A stretch of DNA of 64,000 nt from Corynebacterium sp. BD556. Lineage in GTDB: Bacteria; Actinomycetota; Actinomycetes; Mycobacteriales; Mycobacteriaceae. Where the stretch lies: NCBI RefSeq assembly GCF_038452275.1, contig NZ_CP141643.1, positions 124,001 through 188,000 of the forward strand, in the 5' to 3' direction. Shown piece after piece: positions 1,312 through 24,668 of the stretch. The translations under genes were made by a program, and so were the position numbers. The notes beneath the pieces were generated by a model, which worked only from the letters and a program-made list of their open reading frames with translations, did no database searches and was not told where the DNA came from. Positions within the stretch are counted from its first letter, which is position 1; each line of letters opens with the position of its first letter.

Positions 1312-2214
1312 TTAATCAGATGCGGTTTTGAGTATAGCTGTTTCGGAAGATTCAAAGGCGTTCGGCGAACGATAGCCGCACCTCGAGTGCAGGCGTTTGG
1401 TGTTGTAGCGACTGCACCATTGGAACACGTCCCGGCGACACACCAGCTGACTGGCGAAAACAGGTGCATCTTGAAGGACTTCCCGTTTCAACGTGGCGTT
1501 GAACGACTCCGCCAGAGAATTATCCGCGCTGGTACCAATTGCTCCCATCGATTGGGTAACACCGAGACGTTCACATAGTCTTCGGTACCGATCAGAGGTG
1601 TATACACTGCCATGATCGGAGTGGAAAATCGCTCCGTCAAGCCCGCCACGGATCCCGTAAGCCATCATCAAAGCCTCTTCAACTAACTCCGTACGCATGT
1701 GGACGGCGATCGCGAAACCGGTCAACTGCCGCGAGTAGCAGTCGATGACCGTCGCCAGGTACATATTCGACCCATCTGCAATCGGGAGGTAGGTGATATC
1801 GCCGACGTAGACCGTGTTTGGTTTCTCCGCGGTGAAACGGCGTGCGAGCAGATCCGGAAACGTCGGAGCGCGTTTCGCAGACACCGTGGTCTTTACGCGG
1901 CGTTTCTTGGTGTAGCCGAACAATTCCATCTGGCGCATCAGCCTGGCGGTGCGCTTGTGATTGAGGCGATCATCGCTGGTCGGATCCGAGTTGATGGCCG
2001 CTGTGATGCGTTTCGCCCCGTAACAGCCGTTCTCAGCTGTGAACACGGCCTTGATCCTCGCTCCCAGCGCCGCGTCAGCGACGAGGCGTCGCCGGCGGGC
2101 AGGAGCAGCAGATTTCCACTTGTAGTAGGAGGACCGGTTGATCTTCAGGACCTCACATAACCGCTTGACCTCGTAGAAGTCTCGGTGGTCATCAACGAAC
2201 TGAAAGCGGTTCAC
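1312..2214 (-). CDS. IS3-family transposase OrfB (copy 1)
   Basis: Catalytic DDE integrase subunit of an IS3-family element, 300 aa. The N-terminus (FYEVKRLCEVLKINRSSYYKW) is the HTH_21 region. The rve core follows with the first Asp in YVGDITYLP, the second in FHSDHGSVYTS and the Glu in DNSLAESFNATLKREV. The C-terminus has the usual RLHSRCGYRSPNAFE. The GTG start at 2214 overlaps the orfA stop (GTGA), which allows translational coupling; a frameshifted OrfAB fusion is the usual IS3 mechanism and may also occur. It is identical in translation to the copy at 3893-4795. Confidence 0.93.
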   Translation of the reverse strand: MNRFQFVDDHRDFYEVKRLCEVLKINRSSYYKWKSAAPARRRRLVADAALGARIKAVFTAENGCYGAKRITAAINSDPTSDDRLNHKRTARLMRQMELFGYTKKRRVKTTVSAKRAPTFPDLLARRFTAEKPNTVYVGDITYLPIADGSNMYLATVIDCYSRQLTGFAIAVHMRTELVEEALMMAYGIRGGLDGAIFHSDHGSVYTSDRYRRLCERLGVTQSMGAIGTSADNSLAESFNATLKREVLQDAPVFASQLVCRRDVFQWCSRYNTKRLHSRCGYRSPNAFESSETAILKTASD

Positions 2215-2915: not shown

Positions 2916-3122
2916 CTGCGAGGTTGCTAAGTGTTTGCGTATGAGCTCGGTGACGATCTCGGTGACCGTCGTGTCCTGGTCAGCGGCGAGTCTGCGCAGG
3001 TCGCGTTTCATGTCTGGGGTGATACGGATGTTGAGCTGGACCTCTTGCTTAGGCACCCGCTGCATGGACTGTGCGGCACTTGTAATTGGCCTGCTTTTGG
3101 TTGGGCGACGCATGGAGTTCAT
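2895..3122 (-). CDS. Ribbon-helix-helix DNA-binding protein, putative ParG-like partition partner
   Basis: A 75-aa protein with a flexible basic N-terminus (MRRPTKSRPITSAAQS) and a C-terminal ribbon-helix-helix. The sequence QEVQLNIRITPDMKRDL forms the beta strand and first helix, and TTVTEIVTELIRKHLATS the second. This architecture, next to a small ParA, is that of ParG-type centromere-binding proteins, which bind short repeats, repress their own operon and stimulate the ParA ATPase. Its ATG at 3120-3122 overlaps the parA stop (TAATG), so the two are translationally coupled. Specific function is inferred from this pairing; a CopG-like repressor is the alternative. Confidence 0.75.
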   Translation of the reverse strand: MNSMRRPTKSRPITSAAQSMQRVPKQEVQLNIRITPDMKRDLRRLAADQDTTVTEIVTELIRKHLATSQASKLDN

Positions 3123-3706
3123 TAGCTCAGCTCCTTTACCAGTTCTGCGAGGATCGTGTCATAGCCATGGAGTTTGGTTGGCACTTGCCCAAAGCTTTTT
3201 TTGATACTTTCGCGCTGGGGGATTCCAATCTTGAAAGTCGGGATATGCTCTTCCTTGAGGGCTTCGCGCAGTTCCTGCAGTGAGTTCGTGTTGGGGATGA
3301 CTGAGGTTAATAACACGGTGACTGGAGTGGTCCCGGCCAGATCGGTGGTGGACCACATGCGGTTGACCTCGATGCTGGATGGCCTGGTCGGCACGATAAC
3401 GTGGTCTGCGGCCTGAATAGCCGCATCGATAATTCCGGATTCACCTGGAGGGCAATCGATGATGATCCACTCGGTGTTAGCCGGCCTGATTCGGGTGAGT
3501 GAGCGCGCGTTTGCGGGAAAGACGTCGAAGGGGAGGGGAGTGTTCGCATCCTCTGCTTGCTGAGCCCATTCCGTGGCGGATCCCTGAGGGTCTCCATCGA
3601 GGACGTGGACCTGCTTGCCCTGGTTTGCGAGGGCGGTGGCGAGATATATGGCTGAGGTGGTTTTTCCAGTCCCACCTTTGAGGTTGCAAAGGGTGATGAT
3701 TGGCAT
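3122..3706 (-). CDS. parA: ParA/ParF-like partition ATPase
   Basis: Cytoplasmic P-loop ATPase of the small, plasmid-type ParA class, 194 aa, lacking the N-terminal HTH of long ParAs. The deviant Walker A box is at residues 9-16 (KGGTGKTT). Walker A' and B are represented by VHVLDGDPQGSATEW and WIIIDCPPGESGI. The ATG at 3706 follows AAGGAGACAAA, an excellent ribosome site; the open frame continues upstream into the IS but only by accident. The upstream recombinase stop (3717) overlaps this ribosome site and the RHH gene follows with a 1-base overlap, so int, parA and RHH form one operon. This is how low-copy plasmids secure inheritance. Confidence 0.9.
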   Translation of the reverse strand: MPIITLCNLKGGTGKTTSAIYLATALANQGKQVHVLDGDPQGSATEWAQQAEDANTPLPFDVFPANARSLTRIRPANTEWIIIDCPPGESGIIDAAIQAADHVIVPTRPSSIEVNRMWSTTDLAGTTPVTVLLTSVIPNTNSLQELREALKEEHIPTFKIGIPQRESIKKSFGQVPTKLHGYDTILAELVKELS

Positions 3707-3892
3707 TTTGTCTCCTTTAAAGTTGTGCGGCTTTAACGAGTCCGCGGATGTCGTTTGACGACTTGGTATACCGTTGGGTCGTTTCGATGGATTCGTGACC
3801 AAGGGCTTCCTGAATCGCGATGATGTCCTGACATTGCGCATAGGCAGTTGTCGCGAACCGGGGTCTGAACCCCGGAAAGTGGACACGGAGTT

Positions 3893-4795
3893 TTAATCAG
3901 ATGCGGTTTTGAGTATAGCTGTTTCGGAAGATTCAAAGGCGTTCGGCGAACGATAGCCGCACCTCGAGTGCAGGCGTTTGGTGTTGTAGCGACTGCACCA
4001 TTGGAACACGTCCCGGCGACACACCAGCTGACTGGCGAAAACAGGTGCATCTTGAAGGACTTCCCGTTTCAACGTGGCGTTGAACGACTCCGCCAGAGAA
4101 TTATCCGCGCTGGTACCAATTGCTCCCATCGATTGGGTAACACCGAGACGTTCACATAGTCTTCGGTACCGATCAGAGGTGTATACACTGCCATGATCGG
4201 AGTGGAAAATCGCTCCGTCAAGCCCGCCACGGATCCCGTAAGCCATCATCAAAGCCTCTTCAACTAACTCCGTACGCATGTGGACGGCGATCGCGAAACC
4301 GGTCAACTGCCGCGAGTAGCAGTCGATGACCGTCGCCAGGTACATATTCGACCCATCTGCAATCGGGAGGTAGGTGATATCGCCGACGTAGACCGTGTTT
4401 GGTTTCTCCGCGGTGAAACGGCGTGCGAGCAGATCCGGAAACGTCGGAGCGCGTTTCGCAGACACCGTGGTCTTTACGCGGCGTTTCTTGGTGTAGCCGA
4501 ACAATTCCATCTGGCGCATCAGCCTGGCGGTGCGCTTGTGATTGAGGCGATCATCGCTGGTCGGATCCGAGTTGATGGCCGCTGTGATGCGTTTCGCCCC
4601 GTAACAGCCGTTCTCAGCTGTGAACACGGCCTTGATCCTCGCTCCCAGCGCCGCGTCAGCGACGAGGCGTCGCCGGCGGGCAGGAGCAGCAGATTTCCAC
4701 TTGTAGTAGGAGGACCGGTTGATCTTCAGGACCTCACATAACCGCTTGACCTCGTAGAAGTCTCGGTGGTCATCAACGAACTGAAAGCGGTTCAC
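3893..4795 (-). CDS. IS3-family transposase OrfB (copy 2)
   Basis: DDE transposase subunit, 300 aa, identical in translation to the copy at 1312-2214, with the same DDE motifs and the same GTG start overlapping the orfA stop. Nothing suggests it is inactive, so the element can probably still move. Confidence 0.93.
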   Translation of the reverse strand: MNRFQFVDDHRDFYEVKRLCEVLKINRSSYYKWKSAAPARRRRLVADAALGARIKAVFTAENGCYGAKRITAAINSDPTSDDRLNHKRTARLMRQMELFGYTKKRRVKTTVSAKRAPTFPDLLARRFTAEKPNTVYVGDITYLPIADGSNMYLATVIDCYSRQLTGFAIAVHMRTELVEEALMMAYGIRGGLDGAIFHSDHGSVYTSDRYRRLCERLGVTQSMGAIGTSADNSLAESFNATLKREVLQDAPVFASQLVCRRDVFQWCSRYNTKRLHSRCGYRSPNAFESSETAILKTASD

Positions 4796-5133
4796 CAGTT
4801 CGTCTCTTCCGCGAAATATTTGGCCGCCTTGCGCAGGATCTCTCGTTCTTCCCGTAGCGTGGCGTTTTCGCGTTCCAGCATGCGGATGCGTTCGGCATCG
4901 GAGAGTCCTTGAGCAGGAGTACGTTCGCTGTTGGCTGCGGCGATCGGGCTGGCGACTTTTTCACCGTTGGCGTTGGTTTTGGTGCCGGTGCCGAAGGCGT
5001 CGAGCCAGGTGCGCAGGGAGTTGCGGTTGACCCCGAGATCGGAGGCGATCGCGTTGATCGTGGCTCCAGGGGTCGACTCGTACAACGTCACTGCGTCACG
5101 CTTGAACTGCTCGGTGTAGGTCTTGCGTGGCAT
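4792..5133 (-). CDS. IS3-family transposase OrfA (copy 2)
   Basis: HTH and coiled-coil subunit, 113 aa from ATG 5133, identical in translation to the copy at 2211-2552. It overlaps orfB by the same GTGA. Confidence 0.9.
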   Translation of the reverse strand: MPRKTYTEQFKRDAVTLYESTPGATINAIASDLGVNRNSLRTWLDAFGTGTKTNANGEKVASPIAAANSERTPAQGLSDAERIRMLERENATLREEREILRKAAKYFAEETNW

Positions 5134-5996
5134 GGTGGAAAGGTACCTCACTTCCCCAGCGAAATGCTGGTTTCAGCGTGTCCACCACCAAGGGGTCAGG
5201 TCCCCGGTGGCGTAGCGTATGAAGGGTCCATTGTCCAGGCAGACTTCTCGCCGCCAGTTTCCCGATCCATTTGGGGGATAGATGGCCGTGAACGTTTCCG
5301 GGGAAGAGCCACTTTTGTCCTTGGGACTGCTTAGTGATCATGATCATTAGGTCGGGGGGAACGGGAAGCATTCGGGCTTTCCGGCCTTTGCCATGGACTG
5401 TAAGTGTTCCCCATCCATCCTCTGCAGGATGGATGTCTGCCGCCGCTATCGATGCTATCTCGGCGCTTCTTAATCCCAACTCCGCAGCTAGGCGCAAGAT
5501 GAGCGTAAGGCGTTGGCTTCGCGTTGCCAGAGCCTTTCTAATGGCGGTGTCTGGTGCTGGCCGTGGGGGTGGCACGGGACGTCGAACGGACTTCAGAAGA
5601 AGGGAAGGGTCTTTGGTCCCGTAGCGCTCGGACCTCCATTGAAAGAACAGCCGAACGGAAGCATGGTATGAGTTGCGTGTTTCTGGTGCCCAATTCTTGC
5701 TGCCACTCCACGTCACTAGAGTGTCGCTTGTTACGCTTTCAGGGTTTCTTTCCCCGCACTGGCGAGCAAGTGTGCGCAGGTGACGAATCCGGGTGTCTAT
5801 GGTGGTGGCCGTGCGCCCCTGGGCTCTGAGGAACAACTCGAACTTGAGGAGGTCGGGTTCCCAATCATGGGGGATCGGTCTGAGGTGAGGCCGCTGTGAA
5901 ATAAGCATTCTCTCATACTCGAGGACCCGTTGTTGTCTCCGCGTATCGTAATTGAACGTGTCGGGTAATTCCTCGTTCGACTGCAGCGCGCCCCGT

Positions 5997-6209: not shown

Positions 6210-7639
6210 GGGTTAAGTAGCAAAAAGGGGTTAAGTAGCAAAAAGTGTGTCCGCTCGGCGTGTTGCGGGGCGGGCACACCGTTTGTTACTTCATGGGGCC
6301 TTTTCTGATTCCTATCGAGTGTTCGTACTCGGTTGGGATAGCGTTGTCGTAGAAGGCTGGTCGGCCTGTTTCCTGGTCGGCTTTGTTGTGGTCTTCTTCG
6401 ACAAGATCGTTGACTTTGGCGAGTTGATCTTGGCCGAAATTGCACTGCCTGGCGATCTTTAATGGGTCGTCAGGCAGTTGCGTTTTCGAGTGCAGGTACC
6501 ACTCGAGCATTCTGCGTTGGCGTTCCCCGGACCTGCCGCGATGCGCGTCGGCGATGCGTTTGAGCTGGGCGTTGACGCCGCCTTCCAGACTGTTTGTCGT
6601 TGAAGCCCAGCGTTGAAGCTCAAGCGCATTCGGTGGTGGCTGCAGGTAGGTAAACAGCCATCCTTTCCGTGAGAGGTGCAGCAGGGAGTTGTATGCCTTG
6701 CGAACTCGCAGATGGGTCCATTCCCACTGGTTGTTGAGTGTGCGGCGCTCTTTTGGCACGAGCGTTTTCTCATTGAGGAATGCTGTGAATACCTGTCCGA
6801 AGTCGTGCAGGCGTAGTGTCCAGTCGCGTGCTTGGTCCAAGGTGGTGATACGGGTCAATTTCAACGCCAGGGCGTAGATGGCTTTGCCGGCGTCGGTGCG
6901 TGGTCGTGATGTGGTGTAGTGGCGGATGACGCGTTGCGCATGGACGAGGCATCGTTGGATCATCGCGTTCGGCCAGCAGGCTTTAATCGCAGTAAGTGCG
7001 CCTTGTCCGCCGTCGAGGACGACGCAGAGCGGCTCAGCGATTTTGCGGAGTAGCTGCGTGTAGGCGTGGGCGGTTTCGTGTTTGGTCCAGTGCCATGCGA
7101 TGACGTGGTCGTGGCTGGCTGCGACGAGCAAGCATCCGGCGGCGGTGTAGGTGCCGTCGATGAAGATCTGGTCGTAGACGCGCTGTGGGTCACCGTCGTT
7201 GGGGATGTCGATGAGCCAGAACGGTTTGAATCGGCGGTCAAGTGTCCAACGGCTTACCCCTTGTTGCTGGGCGAGTTCAGACAACGTTGCCGTGGAGGTG
7301 GCATAAGAGACGAAGGCTTTAAAGTCGCGGGCCTGCGTGCGGTCGGTGCGGGTTCGTGTCGTGGAACTGCCGCAGTTCGGGTCCTTGCATCGCCACCTGG
7401 TTGTGCCTTTAGAAGTGGTTCCGTTTTTCTTCATTTGCCCAGCGCATATCGGGCATCGTGGTCTGTTTTTACTCACCCGGAAAGCACACCAAACCCCCGT
7501 TTAGCACATGCGGGTGCCATTCCGGTGGATTGAACACTAATCGGGCGGATATAAGGTCTTGATGCTTATGTCCGCCCGATTTACCCGTTCTGATCAGTAA
7601 TAATGCTGAAAGTTAGACACACTTTCTGCTACTTAACCC
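6210..7639 (-). mobile_element. IS1249-like element (IS256-type) with one duplicated end
   Basis: The outer end at 7639 reads inward GGGTTAAGTAGCAGAAAGTG. The other end reads GGGTTAAGTAGCAAAAAGTG starting at 6228, one mismatch apart. Directly outside it an 18-bp tandem copy (GGGTTAAGTAGCAAAAAG) starts at 6210. I see no target duplication at either possible boundary. The element contains a single transposase gene. Confidence 0.8.
6286..7476 (-). CDS. IS1249-family transposase
   Basis: DDE transposase of about 396 aa, with GTG start at 7476. The N-terminus is a zinc-ribbon-like module (CPICAGQMKKNG ... WRCKDPNC), then an HTH region (LSELAQQQGVSRWTLDRRF). The catalytic core has its first Asp in DQIFIDGTYTAAG, its second in CVVLDGGQGAL and its Glu near TTNSLEGGVNAQLKRI. 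I recognise the overall sequence as close to IS1249 from Corynebacterium xerosis. The frame is complete and undamaged. Confidence 0.88.
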   Translation of the reverse strand: MSKNRPRCPICAGQMKKNGTTSKGTTRWRCKDPNCGSSTTRTRTDRTQARDFKAFVSYATSTATLSELAQQQGVSRWTLDRRFKPFWLIDIPNDGDPQRVYDQIFIDGTYTAAGCLLVAASHDHVIAWHWTKHETAHAYTQLLRKIAEPLCVVLDGGQGALTAIKACWPNAMIQRCLVHAQRVIRHYTTSRPRTDAGKAIYALALKLTRITTLDQARDWTLRLHDFGQVFTAFLNEKTLVPKERRTLNNQWEWTHLRVRKAYNSLLHLSRKGWLFTYLQPPPNALELQRWASTTNSLEGGVNAQLKRIADAHRGRSGERQRRMLEWYLHSKTQLPDDPLKIARQCNFGQDQLAKVNDLVEEDHNKADQETGRPAFYDNAIPTEYEHSIGIRKGPMK

Positions 7640-7681
7640 TGGATAGATCTCTCGGATGTTTGCATTCTATATTCGTAAGTA

Positions 7682-7710
7682 GGAAAGCCCAGGTTAACGC
7701 TGGGCTTTCC
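7682..7710 (-). terminator. Terminator of the bacteriocin gene pair
   Basis: A perfect 11-bp inverted repeat, GGAAAGCCCAG - GTTAACG - CTGGGCTTTCC, lies 17 bp beyond the stop of the 36-aa peptide gene on the minus strand. Its U-tract is weak (TTTCCTAC). It is symmetric enough to act in both directions. Confidence 0.65.
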
Positions 7711-7727
7711 TGGGTCGGTGGAGTGGA

Positions 7728-7838
7728 CTACGTCCGATCCCTCAATTTTCTTGACAGGCGAAGATACATCAGGGTGATCGTCAGAGAGTAGATCAGTAGA
7801 AAGAGCGCGATGATCATTAGCCAGGATTCTTGTGTCAT
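7728..7838 (-). CDS. 36-aa single-span membrane peptide, candidate bacteriocin immunity peptide
   Basis: ATG 7838 is preceded by AGGAGA, which overlaps the stop region of the upstream bacteriocin gene (6 bp between stop and ATG), so translation is probably coupled. The peptide begins MTQESW, has one hydrophobic span (LMIIALFLLIYSLTITLMYL, residues 7-26) and ends in a basic tail (RLSRKLRDRT). A small membrane peptide encoded directly after a bacteriocin precursor is a classic immunity arrangement, but the function here is inferred. It is followed by the terminator at 7682-7710. Confidence 0.65.
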   Translation of the reverse strand: MTQESWLMIIALFLLIYSLTITLMYLRLSRKLRDRT

Positions 7839-7844
7839 GGTCTC

Positions 7845-8615
7845 CTACTTGCAGATGGCGTTAGTTGCTCCAGTGCAGCCCAGTGTAGCGATCAGTCCGC
7901 AGACTGACGCGCATCCAAGACCGGCCAAGCCATTTACAAACCCCAGTCCAAGGCAGATTCCATAGCAACCAGCAGCTCCACCCGTCCCACAGAGTGCACC
8001 CACGCCCCATTCGCAGGCTCCCTGGGTTTGAAAAGCCGGGTCCATCGGGCTGTCCGGGGCGGTGGTAGTATTACCTTCCTTGTCGACATGGCCATGCCAC
8101 AGTAGCTCTCCGTCGCTCAACATCCATGATTCATATTGGCCGGTTGCTGGGTCAAATTGCCCAATTCGGTACGTCTGCACGTTGACCACTTCGGAAAGTT
8201 CGAGGTCGACGGCAATACGGTAAAACTCAAAATTCTGAGGGGTTTCCTTGGGATCCGATACCGGAGCGGCAGTAACCCAGACCTTTCCTTCAGAGGCAAC
8301 CGCAACGTTCGCTTTTTCCCAATCCAGAATAGTGGTGGCATCAATCGCAGACATATGTTCCTGCGCAATTGATTTCGCTTCGTTGGTTTGGTCTTTACTG
8401 AGCTGCACCGGGGTAGCTGATTCCGTCGCGTCTCCACAGGCACTTGGGCGACTGGGTGCGGATGTATCGGTTTCGACTGTAGCGTTTGGAGGCGGTGTGC
8501 TACTGCCTAGGGATGATGCATGAGCTACACTGTTGGCGAGCATTAGGGCAACTACAGCAAACAAGGTGAGTGCAAGTACTCCAATGCGGAGCCAACGTAG
8601 TGATTGAACTTTCAT
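7845..8615 (-). CDS. Secreted halocin-C8-like bacteriocin precursor
   Basis: A 256-aa preproprotein. Residues 1-33 form a signal peptide (LRIGVLALTLFAVVALMLA, then AHA). Residues about 34-198 are a hydrophilic pro-region. The last 57 residues, starting ACEWGVGALC, contain eight cysteines in a Gly/Ala-rich hydrophobic setting (GCYGICLGLGFVNGLAGLGC, ASVCGLIATLGC, AICK). Cysteine-dense hydrophobic C-termini after a long pro-region are typical of halocin C8 and its actinobacterial relatives, where the C-terminal part is released as the antimicrobial peptide. In halocin C8 the N-terminal part gives immunity; whether that holds here is unknown. The ATG has TAGGAA upstream. The region between IS elements suggests horizontal acquisition. 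Confidence 0.8.
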   Translation of the reverse strand: MKVQSLRWLRIGVLALTLFAVVALMLANSVAHASSLGSSTPPPNATVETDTSAPSRPSACGDATESATPVQLSKDQTNEAKSIAQEHMSAIDATTILDWEKANVAVASEGKVWVTAAPVSDPKETPQNFEFYRIAVDLELSEVVNVQTYRIGQFDPATGQYESWMLSDGELLWHGHVDKEGNTTTAPDSPMDPAFQTQGACEWGVGALCGTGGAAGCYGICLGLGFVNGLAGLGCASVCGLIATLGCTGATNAICK

Positions 8616-8799
8616 GGTTCCTACCCTCGGGGTTCCAACCTACTTACGGGGGAGGGCGGGGGCGCTGTGCGATCACCTTAAGCACAATCTCAATTGCCCC
8701 CACAAATAACGATATAGCAAGGTGATTTGACAGACAATAGAAATTCGATGTAAGTATACTTTCGTATACTTCTTCCGATTTTCCACCGATGGGTCGGGC

Positions 8800-9022
8800 G
8801 TGTCCGTTAGCATCTGACACATCAGATCCGGGGATGCCTGGGTGAGTGGCTCATCGAGGTAGGTGGTCGGGTCGATATGCTTCGGAGTCAACGTCCACCC
8901 GCGTGGTAAGTCCTTTCGAGGAGATGTGAGAGTTGATTCGAAAGGTATCCACGATGGTCGCCCTCATCGGTGCCGACATGAGCACTCACCACGGATCACA
9001 GATACACCACGCTAACGGACAC
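8800..9022 (-). mobile_element. Internally deleted IS256-family (mutator) relic, MITE-like, 223 bp
   Basis: It is bounded by a perfect 12-bp inverted repeat, GTGTCCGTTAGC at 8800 and its complement ending at 9022. Inside, on the minus strand, are the upstream region and only the first 28 codons of a mutator-type transposase. The frame then runs directly into the opposite terminal repeat. No target duplication is visible. Confidence 0.65.
8808..8891 (-). pseudogene. IS256/mutator-family transposase, N-terminal 28 codons only
   Basis: The start MTPKHIDPTTYLDEPLTQAS, then PDLMCQML, is the recognisable N-terminus of corynebacterial IS256-family transposases of about 400 aa. After this the sequence is the terminal repeat of the relic, so more than 90% of the gene is missing. 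The frame continues without homology to about 8673. Confidence 0.7.
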
Positions 9023-9297
9023 TGATAATGGGAGTGCGGGACAAGAACCATCCGGAATGACCCACTAACGGACTGGCCACAATCTGATTGTGTGCCTTCG
9101 TTGCGATCTGTCTTCCGGGCTGGTTCTCGCCCCGCACCGCGATCCGGCGATTCGGTCATGACCTCATAGGAGCGTGACCTCTCACCGTGAGCACCCCGGC
9201 AGGTGCCATAGTAGTAGTCCCATCAGTGTCCTGTCTGCTCGAACCCTCGGATCAGCGGCTACCTTCATCACTTCCCTATGCGAAAGCGTTGACAGCC
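9023..9297 (+). other. Non-coding segment upstream of the IS110-family gene, possible bridge RNA region
   Basis: About 275 bp without a supported gene. IS110-family elements encode a structured bridge RNA in a non-coding end; in many it lies upstream of the transposase. This segment is the right place and size, with GC-rich local repeats (for example TCTTCCGGGCTGGTTCTCGCC). I could not fold it or define the IS end, so the assignment is only positional. Confidence 0.35.
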
Positions 9298-10527
9298 ATG
9301 ACCACAGACATCGACCTCTCCGCAAGCCCCGTCGCCGGGGTCGACACCCACACCGACACCCACACCGTCGCCGCGGTGACCCCAACCGGCCGGCACCTGA
9401 CCACCGAAACCTTCCCCACCACTAGGCCCGGCTACACACACCTCGCCGAGTTCCTCAGCAAGCACGGTGTCGGCGCCGTCGGAGTAGAAGGAACCAACTC
9501 CTTCGGTGCCGGATTAACCCGGCACCTCATAGACCGTGGCTACACGGTCGTTGAAGTCCTGCGCCCGGCCCGCAGCATTCGACGCCGGGACGGGAAATCA
9601 GATCCGGTGGATGCCCTTGCCGCCGCGCGACAGGTCCTGACCGGGGAAGGGCTGAGCACGCCTAAAGATTCCACGGGCCCGGTGGAGTCGTTACGAGCGT
9701 TACAGATCACCCGGAAACAGCTGGTGTCCACCACCGCGAAACTCATCACAACGATGAAGTCGTTGCTGGTCACAGCCCCTGATGACATCCGCACCCGCTA
9801 CGCCACGATGACCAATCACGCTCTGGTCAACGCGTTGGTGTACTGCCGACCGTCGTCGGATGGTACTGATCCGCGAAATGGTGTGCTGACCAGCCTGAAG
9901 ATTCTGGCCACGACCTACCGCGCATTGCGGGTGCAGTGCGATGAGCTGGAAACCCGGATCGCTGCCCTGGTGTCAGTGATCAATCCCCATGTCAGCAACA
10001 TCGTGGGATGTGGGGCTCTTGTTTCCGCTGATCTGCTGATCAGCATCGGCGATAATCCGGAGCGCATCCACTCCGAAGCAGCGCTGGCGCACTTATGTGG
10101 AGCGGCTCCACTGCCGGCAAGCTCTGGGCGAACCAACCGGCACCGGCTCAATCGTGGTGGTGACCGGCGGGCGAACTCAGCGTTGGACCGAATCGCTATG
10201 GTGAGGATGAAGTGTGACCAGCGCACCAGGGAGTACGTCGCCCGGCGTACCGAGGAGGGGTTGTCGAAAAGGGAGATTATTCGCTGCCTGAAGCGCGCGA
10301 TCGTCCGGGAGATCTACCGGGTCATATGCACCAGGCGCAGTACGCCACAGCCCAGGGATCTTCGTCGGGATGAGTTGAAAGAACTGCGTATCGCGAAGCA
10401 TCTCACCCAGGTGGTTGTAGCGAAGCATTTGGGGTGTGCCCCGGCGAGGATCAGTGACATCGAGACTGGAAAACGTCCGTTGACGGAATTAGCATCGGCC
10501 TACGAAAAATTTCTGAAAAGCGCTTGA
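9298..10527 (+). CDS. IS110-family transposase with C-terminal HTH
   Basis: Recombinase with an N-terminal RuvC-like DEDD domain (GVDTHTDTH first Asp, VGVEGTNSFGAGL Glu, RRRDGKSDPVDALAAA for the DxxD pair). The C-terminal transposase_20 domain has GCGALVSADLLISIGD and CGAAPLPASSGRTNRHRLNRGG, which carries the presumed nucleophilic serine. The last 55 residues (ELRIAKHLTQVVVAKHLGCAPARISDIETGKRPL) form an XRE-like HTH beyond the usual core. ATG 9298 puts the catalytic Asp near residue 16 as in relatives; an upstream GTG at 9187 would add 37 residues without family features. The frame is intact, 409 aa. Confidence 0.88.
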   Translation: MTTDIDLSASPVAGVDTHTDTHTVAAVTPTGRHLTTETFPTTRPGYTHLAEFLSKHGVGAVGVEGTNSFGAGLTRHLIDRGYTVVEVLRPARSIRRRDGKSDPVDALAAARQVLTGEGLSTPKDSTGPVESLRALQITRKQLVSTTAKLITTMKSLLVTAPDDIRTRYATMTNHALVNALVYCRPSSDGTDPRNGVLTSLKILATTYRALRVQCDELETRIAALVSVINPHVSNIVGCGALVSADLLISIGDNPERIHSEAALAHLCGAAPLPASSGRTNRHRLNRGGDRRANSALDRIAMVRMKCDQRTREYVARRTEEGLSKREIIRCLKRAIVREIYRVICTRRSTPQPRDLRRDELKELRIAKHLTQVVVAKHLGCAPARISDIETGKRPLTELASAYEKFLKSA

Positions 10528-24464: not shown

Positions 24465-24668
24465 CTAACCTCCCTGCACCGCAGTGAGGATGTCCACGTG
24501 AGCGCCCTCGGCAAGCTCGGTGGTGCCCCACGCTGAGCGGGGAACCACCTCTCCGTCGACGGCAACAGCAGTGCCAGCGCCAGGCGCTTCACCCAACACC
24601 TCCACGGTGAGTTCTTCCACGGTGCGCGCCTCAATGGTGCGCGCAGCGGCGTTGACAAAAATGTTCAT
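24465..24668 (-). CDS. thiS: Sulfur carrier protein ThiS
   Basis: A 67-aa ubiquitin-fold protein starting at ATG 24668 (MNIFVNAAARTIEARTVEEL) and ending in the obligatory Gly-Gly (VDILTAVQGG), which is adenylated by ThiF and converted to a thiocarboxylate. Its start overlaps the thiO stop (ATGA), and thiG follows by 6 bp. Length is normal for the family. Confidence 0.95.
   Translation of the reverse strand: MNIFVNAAARTIEARTVEELTVEVLGEAPGAGTAVAVDGEVVPRSAWGTTELAEGAHVDILTAVQGG

Follow-up and report, generated by a model that had tools for sequence, protein, structure and literature searches.

A halocin-C8-like precursor gene and a single-span membrane peptide gene behind it form a likely bacteriocin and immunity cassette in Corynebacterium

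The window, by which we mean the whole 64-kb stretch of DNA analysed from a 2.35 Mb Corynebacterium genome, carries a pair of adjacent genes that probably constitutes a two-gene cassette, made of a bacteriocin precursor and of a single-span membrane peptide likely to give immunity to the precursor's core, a reading drawn from sequence comparison. With less assurance, we lean towards the wider view that the producers of halocin-C8-like bacteriocins in Corynebacterium and Staphylococcus are protected by a family of one-span peptides of 25-44 residues, among the smallest of known immunity proteins, which spreads together with the toxins as a two-gene cassette, is kept by non-producers as a stand-alone resistance gene missed by gene finders, and replaces the immunity that halocin C8 has built into its precursor. 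The features of the pair are the following:

7845..8615, minus strand: precursor gene, an ORF with an ATG start encoding 256 aa, with NF040679, TIGR04449 and TIGR04450 matches at residues 182-256
8514..8615, minus strand: hydrophobic leader seen in the sequence, residues 1-34, a predicted signal or anchor helix (helix 5-28 in the structural model)
8046..8408, minus strand: N-terminal domain, residues 70-190, a predicted pro-domain (helix and antiparallel sheet in the structural model, cystatin/PepSY-like)
7848..8018, minus strand: predicted mature antimicrobial core, residues 200-256, with 8 Cys (three helices in the structural model)
7842..7846, minus strand: AGGAG, a ribosome-binding-like site that shares bases with the precursor stop codon and lies 3 nt ahead of the peptide ATG
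7728..7838, minus strand: 36-aa single-span peptide, the proposed immunity peptide, an ATG ORF of a conserved family (pN/pS 0.10 over four genes)
7767..7823, minus strand: hydrophobic span of the peptide, residues 6-24 (mean Kyte-Doolittle 2.36), with an FLx[IV]YS motif and a basic tail after it
7681..7712, minus strand: 12-bp inverted repeat 3' of the peptide gene, a possible transcript end without a U-run

The sequence-only reading had described a secreted 256-aa precursor ending in 57 residues with eight Cys, and a 36-aa ORF starting six bases past its stop codon. Both descriptions are borne out by the open reading frames, by the Cys at positions 201, 209, 217, 221, 235, 239, 247 and 255 of the precursor and by the 6 nt that separate the precursor stop from the peptide start, secretion being a prediction. 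The strong ribosome site that it gave the peptide is present as the AGGAG but, placed as it is, is not clearly strong; its perfect 11-bp hairpin exists as an inverted repeat (arms AGGAAAGCCCAG...CTGGGCTTTCCT), although of 12 bp and lacking the U-run. The RNA fold of this hairpin has an energy of -21.5 kcal/mol and a z of -4.55, and a terminator scan of 7500-9000 returned no terminator-like site, the hairpin being without a T-run. Under a combined small-ORF filter (22-45 aa, an ATG start, an upstream AGGA, GGAG or GAGG, and a 19-residue window with a mean Kyte-Doolittle value above 2.0), the peptide gene is the only such ORF found on both strands of the 64 kb.

The pair had also been placed in an IS-rich island, and Pfam confirms transposases on both sides of it. 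These genes give the context and lie outside the cassette:

6286..7476, minus strand: Mutator-type transposase downstream of the pair (PF00872)
9187..10527, plus strand: IS110-family transposase upstream of the pair (PF01548, PF02371)
1312..2214, minus strand: rve-domain transposase (Pfam), with a second copy of identical translation at 3893-4795

The IS copies at 1312-2570 and 3893-5151 flank a ParA-type ATPase gene (3122-3886) in an arrangement like that of a composite transposon, and a phage-integrase-type ORF at 5096-5908 runs into the second copy. Elsewhere in the window, ARAGORN calls an 88-nt tRNA-Ala(ggc) at 24517-24604; this call may be false, since nothing in the window reaches the Rfam gathering threshold for a tRNA. 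Plasmid searches for the locus gave no match, and a related-locus search with a single protein found no relatives among 31 stretches.

The precursor was next compared with curated protein families. TIGR04449 aligns residues 200-256 with positions 3-64 of 69, which is nearly the whole model, at 23.6 bits for a cut-off of 24; NF040679 matches residues 197-256 only, at 75.1 bits for a cut-off of 200; and TIGR04450 reaches 21.6 bits for a cut-off of 27. Hence the proposed check against halocin C8-like profiles succeeds in that the core matches the models, but the window's protein misses them all by curated score. Nine of the ten scanned relatives pass TIGR04449 (24.4 to 36.7 bits), P0001 scoring 21.5, and the relative P0003 attains 27.4 bits with TIGR04450. 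At E<=0.01 the precursor has at least 50 relatives, 45 of them with PF27906, among the best 7995 candidates scored; the named ones in that same set belong to Corynebacterium, Staphylococcus, Planococcus and several Bacillus-like genera. The closest named relative is a Corynebacterium cystitidis protein with 97% identity. On the level of genomes, the NF040679 cut-off is passed in 0 of 242 Corynebacterium and 6 of 84 Staphylococcus genomes, and an NF040679 match is present in 8 and 10 of them, respectively. Against PDB sequences the precursor profile gave one weak match only (8smq, E 0.012). Furthermore, Cys221 and Cys235 are both present in 15 of 41 aligned proteins and both missing in 26 (one via a gap), neither ever occurring alone; presence or absence together is the pattern of a disulfide.

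Small ORFs after homologous precursors, which the sequence-only reading proposed to look for, are present behind those of Corynebacterium and Staphylococcus, divergent loci being without them. The family thus assembled has members of 25-44 aa with the motif F-L-x-[IV]-Y-S-x-x-[IV]-[TS] (few exceptions), followed by a hydrophobic stretch and a basic end. Of the 242 Corynebacterium genomes, 25 matched a 12-row profile of the peptide at E<=0.1, and 19 of these did so at E<1e-6; the reversed profile matched three of the same genomes at E<=0.1, with a best value of 0.025 and none below 0.01, and this control rules out generic transmembrane similarity as the source of the matches. Among the 84 Staphylococcus genomes the peptide is found in 15 at E<1e-4 and in 17 at E<=0.01, and nine genomes have both the peptide and an NF040679 match. 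The loci of S. coagulans, S. intermedius and S. argensis, which were fetched via the precursor, carry members of 25-28 aa directly behind it, and 1-18 nt separate the peptide's start codon from the toxin's stop codon in the 18 loci for which this was measured. In a co-occurrence test including all NF040679-positive genomes, the peptide is present in 6 of 8 positive and 13 of 234 negative Corynebacterium genomes (Fisher 2.6e-6) and in 9 of 10 positive and 6 of 74 negative Staphylococcus genomes (Fisher 1.3e-7), genomes being taken as independent in both cases. Judged by this conservation, the peptide is a real gene and a member of a conserved family. No curated NCBIfam family covers the 17 peptides of the family that were searched (best E 0.049), and the peptide profile had no match among PDB sequences. 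The best Pfam match of the same 17 peptides is PF11628, the T-cell receptor zeta chain (E 4.4e-5; matched by 12 of them). Kinship was rejected, given that the window peptide scores 17.2 bits for a cut-off of 25 and that the match covers a short transmembrane stretch; the likeness is read as convergence, possibly upon a helix-dimer surface.

The fate of toxin and peptide was then followed in 36 loci, namely the 19 Corynebacterium genomes at E<1e-6 and 17 Staphylococcus loci at E<1e-4; six Corynebacterium genomes at E 0.001-0.1, Staphylococcus G263 and G315 and a second weak G243 match were left out as chance or unclear. The toxin frame is intact in eight loci (G000, G043, G064, G200 and, in Staphylococcus, G246, G261b, G271 and G272), and so is the peptide in all eight. 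In G245a the toxin is open with its start unseen, and this locus was assigned to neither the intact nor the damaged class. In 12 loci the toxin is damaged or a relic, and here the peptide is intact in ten (G017, G122, G193, G132, G188 and, in Staphylococcus, G243, G267, G273, G261a and G245b) and damaged in two (G129, G313). The remaining 15 loci, from 9 of the 19 Corynebacterium genomes and 6 of the 17 Staphylococcus loci, have no recognisable toxin. For this scoring, G261a was taken as damaged because its reading frame changes within the leader, and the relics of G188 and G245b, read by eye, were counted, while possible last codons in G076 and G190, also by eye, were not. The remnants ahead of the peptide are of 11 residues in G132 (tblastn) and 8 residues in G188 (by eye), and none of the 11 Corynebacterium genomes whose peptide is an orphan or linked to a relic has a TIGR04449 match.

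As the peptide makes up about one eighth of the cassette and is therefore a small target, the fact that 10 of 12 damaged loci retain it is weak evidence by count alone. When 4 of the 19 genes from Corynebacterium are pooled, pN/pS of the peptide is 0.10; when 14 of the 17 from Staphylococcus are pooled, it is 0.17. In the pair G243 and G267, whose toxins are both damaged, the peptide has accumulated 6 synonymous and no non-synonymous changes, and the last 90 toxin codons 20 synonymous and 18 non-synonymous ones. The toxin end of G267 differs from the intact one of G261b by 24 synonymous and 5 non-synonymous changes, and the two G261 copies differ from each other there by 11 and 0; the toxin end of G267 is thus still constrained, which marks the damage there as recent, and the peptide may have been conserved partly before that damage occurred. 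Between G200 and G122, the latter with a broken toxin, the toxin end shows 1 synonymous and 7 non-synonymous changes and the peptides differ at three residues, and selection on the G122 peptide may be relaxed. The peptide also stands out from its surroundings in pairs of loci of which at least one has no toxin beside it: G000 and G218 share 105 of 108 positions in it, with 300 bp upstream that cannot be aligned (15/28) and 70% identity downstream; G261b and G245b share 69 of 75 versus 59% and 56% in the flanks; G248 and G281, both orphans, share 67 of 75 versus 57% and 51%. G272 and G273 are identical over 75 of 75, with 76% upstream (with gaps) but 93% downstream. The IS elements on either side of the pair and the decay of several relatives would also suit a defunct locus, left over in an IS-rich region and without a function today. 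We hold this to be most improbable, as both ORFs are intact in the window and in G043 and as substitutions between intact pairs are constrained, the toxin pN/pS being 0.10 for G261b/G246 (Staphylococcus) and 0.34 for G043/G000.

Outside these two genera, a sample of 250 Bacilli genomes contains the peptide in 16 at E<=0.001, five of which are Staphylococcus genomes already counted. Of the other 11, a single one (G395) has a halocin-like match, located elsewhere in the genome. Seven of these genomes carry the peptide at fixed sites and have no NF040679 match. In three (L127/G461, L128/G493, L129/G393) it follows the gene of the HtpX membrane protease, with the sequence MFESALELGIV[LI]FLLIYSITVSLMLMS[AV]KKKS, and in four (L123/G544, L124/G408, L125/G552, L126/G343) it occupies one conserved site beside an opposite-strand DegV gene; one HtpX and one DegV gene were identified by family search and the others from near-identical translations. 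Given such toxin-free copies, the family may serve a different function, or have acquired one, and the copies at fixed Bacilli sites may represent either resident immunity or that other function. Taken further, the HtpX- and DegV-linked copies, together with the nine Corynebacterium genomes and six Staphylococcus loci lacking any toxin remnant, would be compatible with a general small membrane protein, for instance a regulator or client of membrane quality control, which was acquired behind the toxin and is unconnected with immunity. We consider this unlikely in view of the gene order and close spacing that toxin loci of two phyla share, of the co-occurrence statistics, and of a 246-genome Actinomycetota sample in which the peptide was found in its own genome and in one weak match only (E 2.3e-4, a 77-codon open frame).

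A peptide that is hydrophobic, cationic, 25-44 aa long and near enough to the toxin for one transcript could likewise be a second toxin component, membrane-active together with the core as in a two-peptide bacteriocin. This appears very unlikely, since the peptide has no leader, no common exporter lies beside it (by eye), and its conservation without the core would preserve a useless or self-harming gene. Indeed, inspection by eye of six intact loci revealed no exporter, protease or further immunity gene common to the neighbours; an exporter was rejected as part of the cassette on the basis of these loci and one damaged copy, and the cassette hence looks self-sufficient and mobile. The peptide both adjoins the toxin and is present in non-producers, two signs expected of an immunity gene. 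Its presence and conservation without the toxin fit an immunity gene and not an export helper or a second toxin, so that the pair is read as bacteriocin plus immunity, the immunity role being likely because the peptide is linked to the toxin, is under selection and outlasts the toxin's loss. The antimicrobial and immunity pair suggested by the sequence-only reading thereby gains support from the core-model matches and from the related small ORFs behind homologous precursors.

According to the mechanism that we propose for this bacteriocin and immunity pair, the precursor would be exported and its N-terminal domain, predicted to be cystatin/PepSY-like, would prevent the core from acting before an extracellular protease releases it. 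This core is predicted to consist of three helices with three disulfides, plus a fourth in 8-Cys cores, and would then damage the membranes of competing Gram-positive bacteria. For the peptide we predict a place in the membrane of the producer, the basic tail pointing into the cell; through its conserved Tyr-Ser...Thr/Ser face it would bind either the core once inserted or the target site of the core, thus blocking the attack. A comparable case is PepI, the immunity peptide of Pep5, which is short, has one membrane span, adjoins the toxin gene and bears a charged C-terminal end; it guards against a lantibiotic and, with 69 aa, is longer than the 36-aa peptide, the two being likened by general description only.

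The cassette resembles halocin C8 in that its precursor has a hydrophobic, Cys-rich C-terminal core, here predicted to be freed from the N-terminal part. It differs by its Gram-positive host and by a shorter core, of 57 aa with 8 Cys, against the 76 aa given for halocin C8 in PMC11509114. It differs also by the separate small membrane gene behind the precursor: the title of Sun 2005, as cited in PMC12893001, has a single gene directing both production and immunity. According to PMC11509114, ProC8 yields HalI and the 76-aa HalC8, and export takes the Tat pathway; inspected by eye only, the precursor leader in the window shows no twin-arginine pair. The same core is found in NF040679 (halocin_of_epi) and TIGR04450 (Gpos_C8_like), and the Staphylococcus members above the NF040679 cut-off carry the same small peptide behind them, whereas the precursor of Corynebacterium differs in the sequence of its N-terminal domain and falls far short of that cut-off; the small peptide itself is outside both models. 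Within the literature matches listed, as judged by title and abstract opening and with subscription journals thinly represented, none concerned Gram-positive halocin-C8-like genes with a companion peptide.

This comparison raises an alternative, namely that immunity resides in the N-terminal domain of the precursor, as for halocin C8, and that the peptide helps to export, fold or activate the precursor. The predicted model of the N-terminal domain resembles folds frequent in inhibitory pro-domains; moreover, TIGR04450 is described as an immunity/bacteriocin fusion, and halocin C8 offers the precedent of one gene for both functions, with ProC8 giving HalI and HalC8 (PMC11509114). Yet a toxin accessory is useless without a toxin, and an intact, conserved peptide persists at loci that have a broken toxin or none. 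We thus regard this alternative as improbable, to about the same degree as that of a general membrane protein, and retain the peptide as the likely immunity factor.

On this last reading, some Gram-positive relatives of halocin C8 appear to carry a dedicated immunity gene that is short enough for annotation to miss. If this is true, a marker of 25-44 codons could predict the sensitivity of Corynebacterium and Staphylococcus to this class of bacteriocin, and a one-helix peptide would offer an unusually simple model of an immunity peptide blocking a membrane toxin. It also provides a search recipe, which is to look for conserved one-span ORFs just behind Cys-rich secreted precursors.

Divergent halocin-like loci without the peptide occur in 2 of the 8 Corynebacterium genomes with an NF040679 match (G145, G078) and in 1 of the 10 such Staphylococcus genomes (G285). 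The latter was rejected as an exception for the same toxin, its core having a different Cys pattern. The G145 precursor (L026:7520-7840) is a divergent halocin-like protein that scores 30.5 bits with TIGR04449, and in both G145 and G078 (L026, L027) the toxin is followed by a multi-span ORF, of 107 aa in G145, which has no Pfam or NCBIfam match and is a different candidate immunity gene. The peptide profile found nothing in the three genomes of L057, L059 and L062 (Ornithinibacillus, Lysinibacillus, Oceanobacillus), and no peptide lies behind their toxins; membrane-type ORFs are located upstream of the toxin instead, as leads only. In Staphylococcus G248, a precursor-like ORF of 169 aa (L115:1896-2405) without a Pfam or NCBIfam match lies near the orphan peptide on the opposite strand; it has a Gly-rich C-terminal segment ending in Cys-Phe, and with a hydrophobic ORF of 63 aa nearby it perhaps constitutes another bacteriocin with its immunity. 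Finally, ABC transporter-like ORFs were seen by eye upstream of the peptide in G132 (L053) and G024 (L050), accompanied by a response regulator in G132, where the 11-residue toxin remnant lies between the transporter-like ORFs and the peptide.
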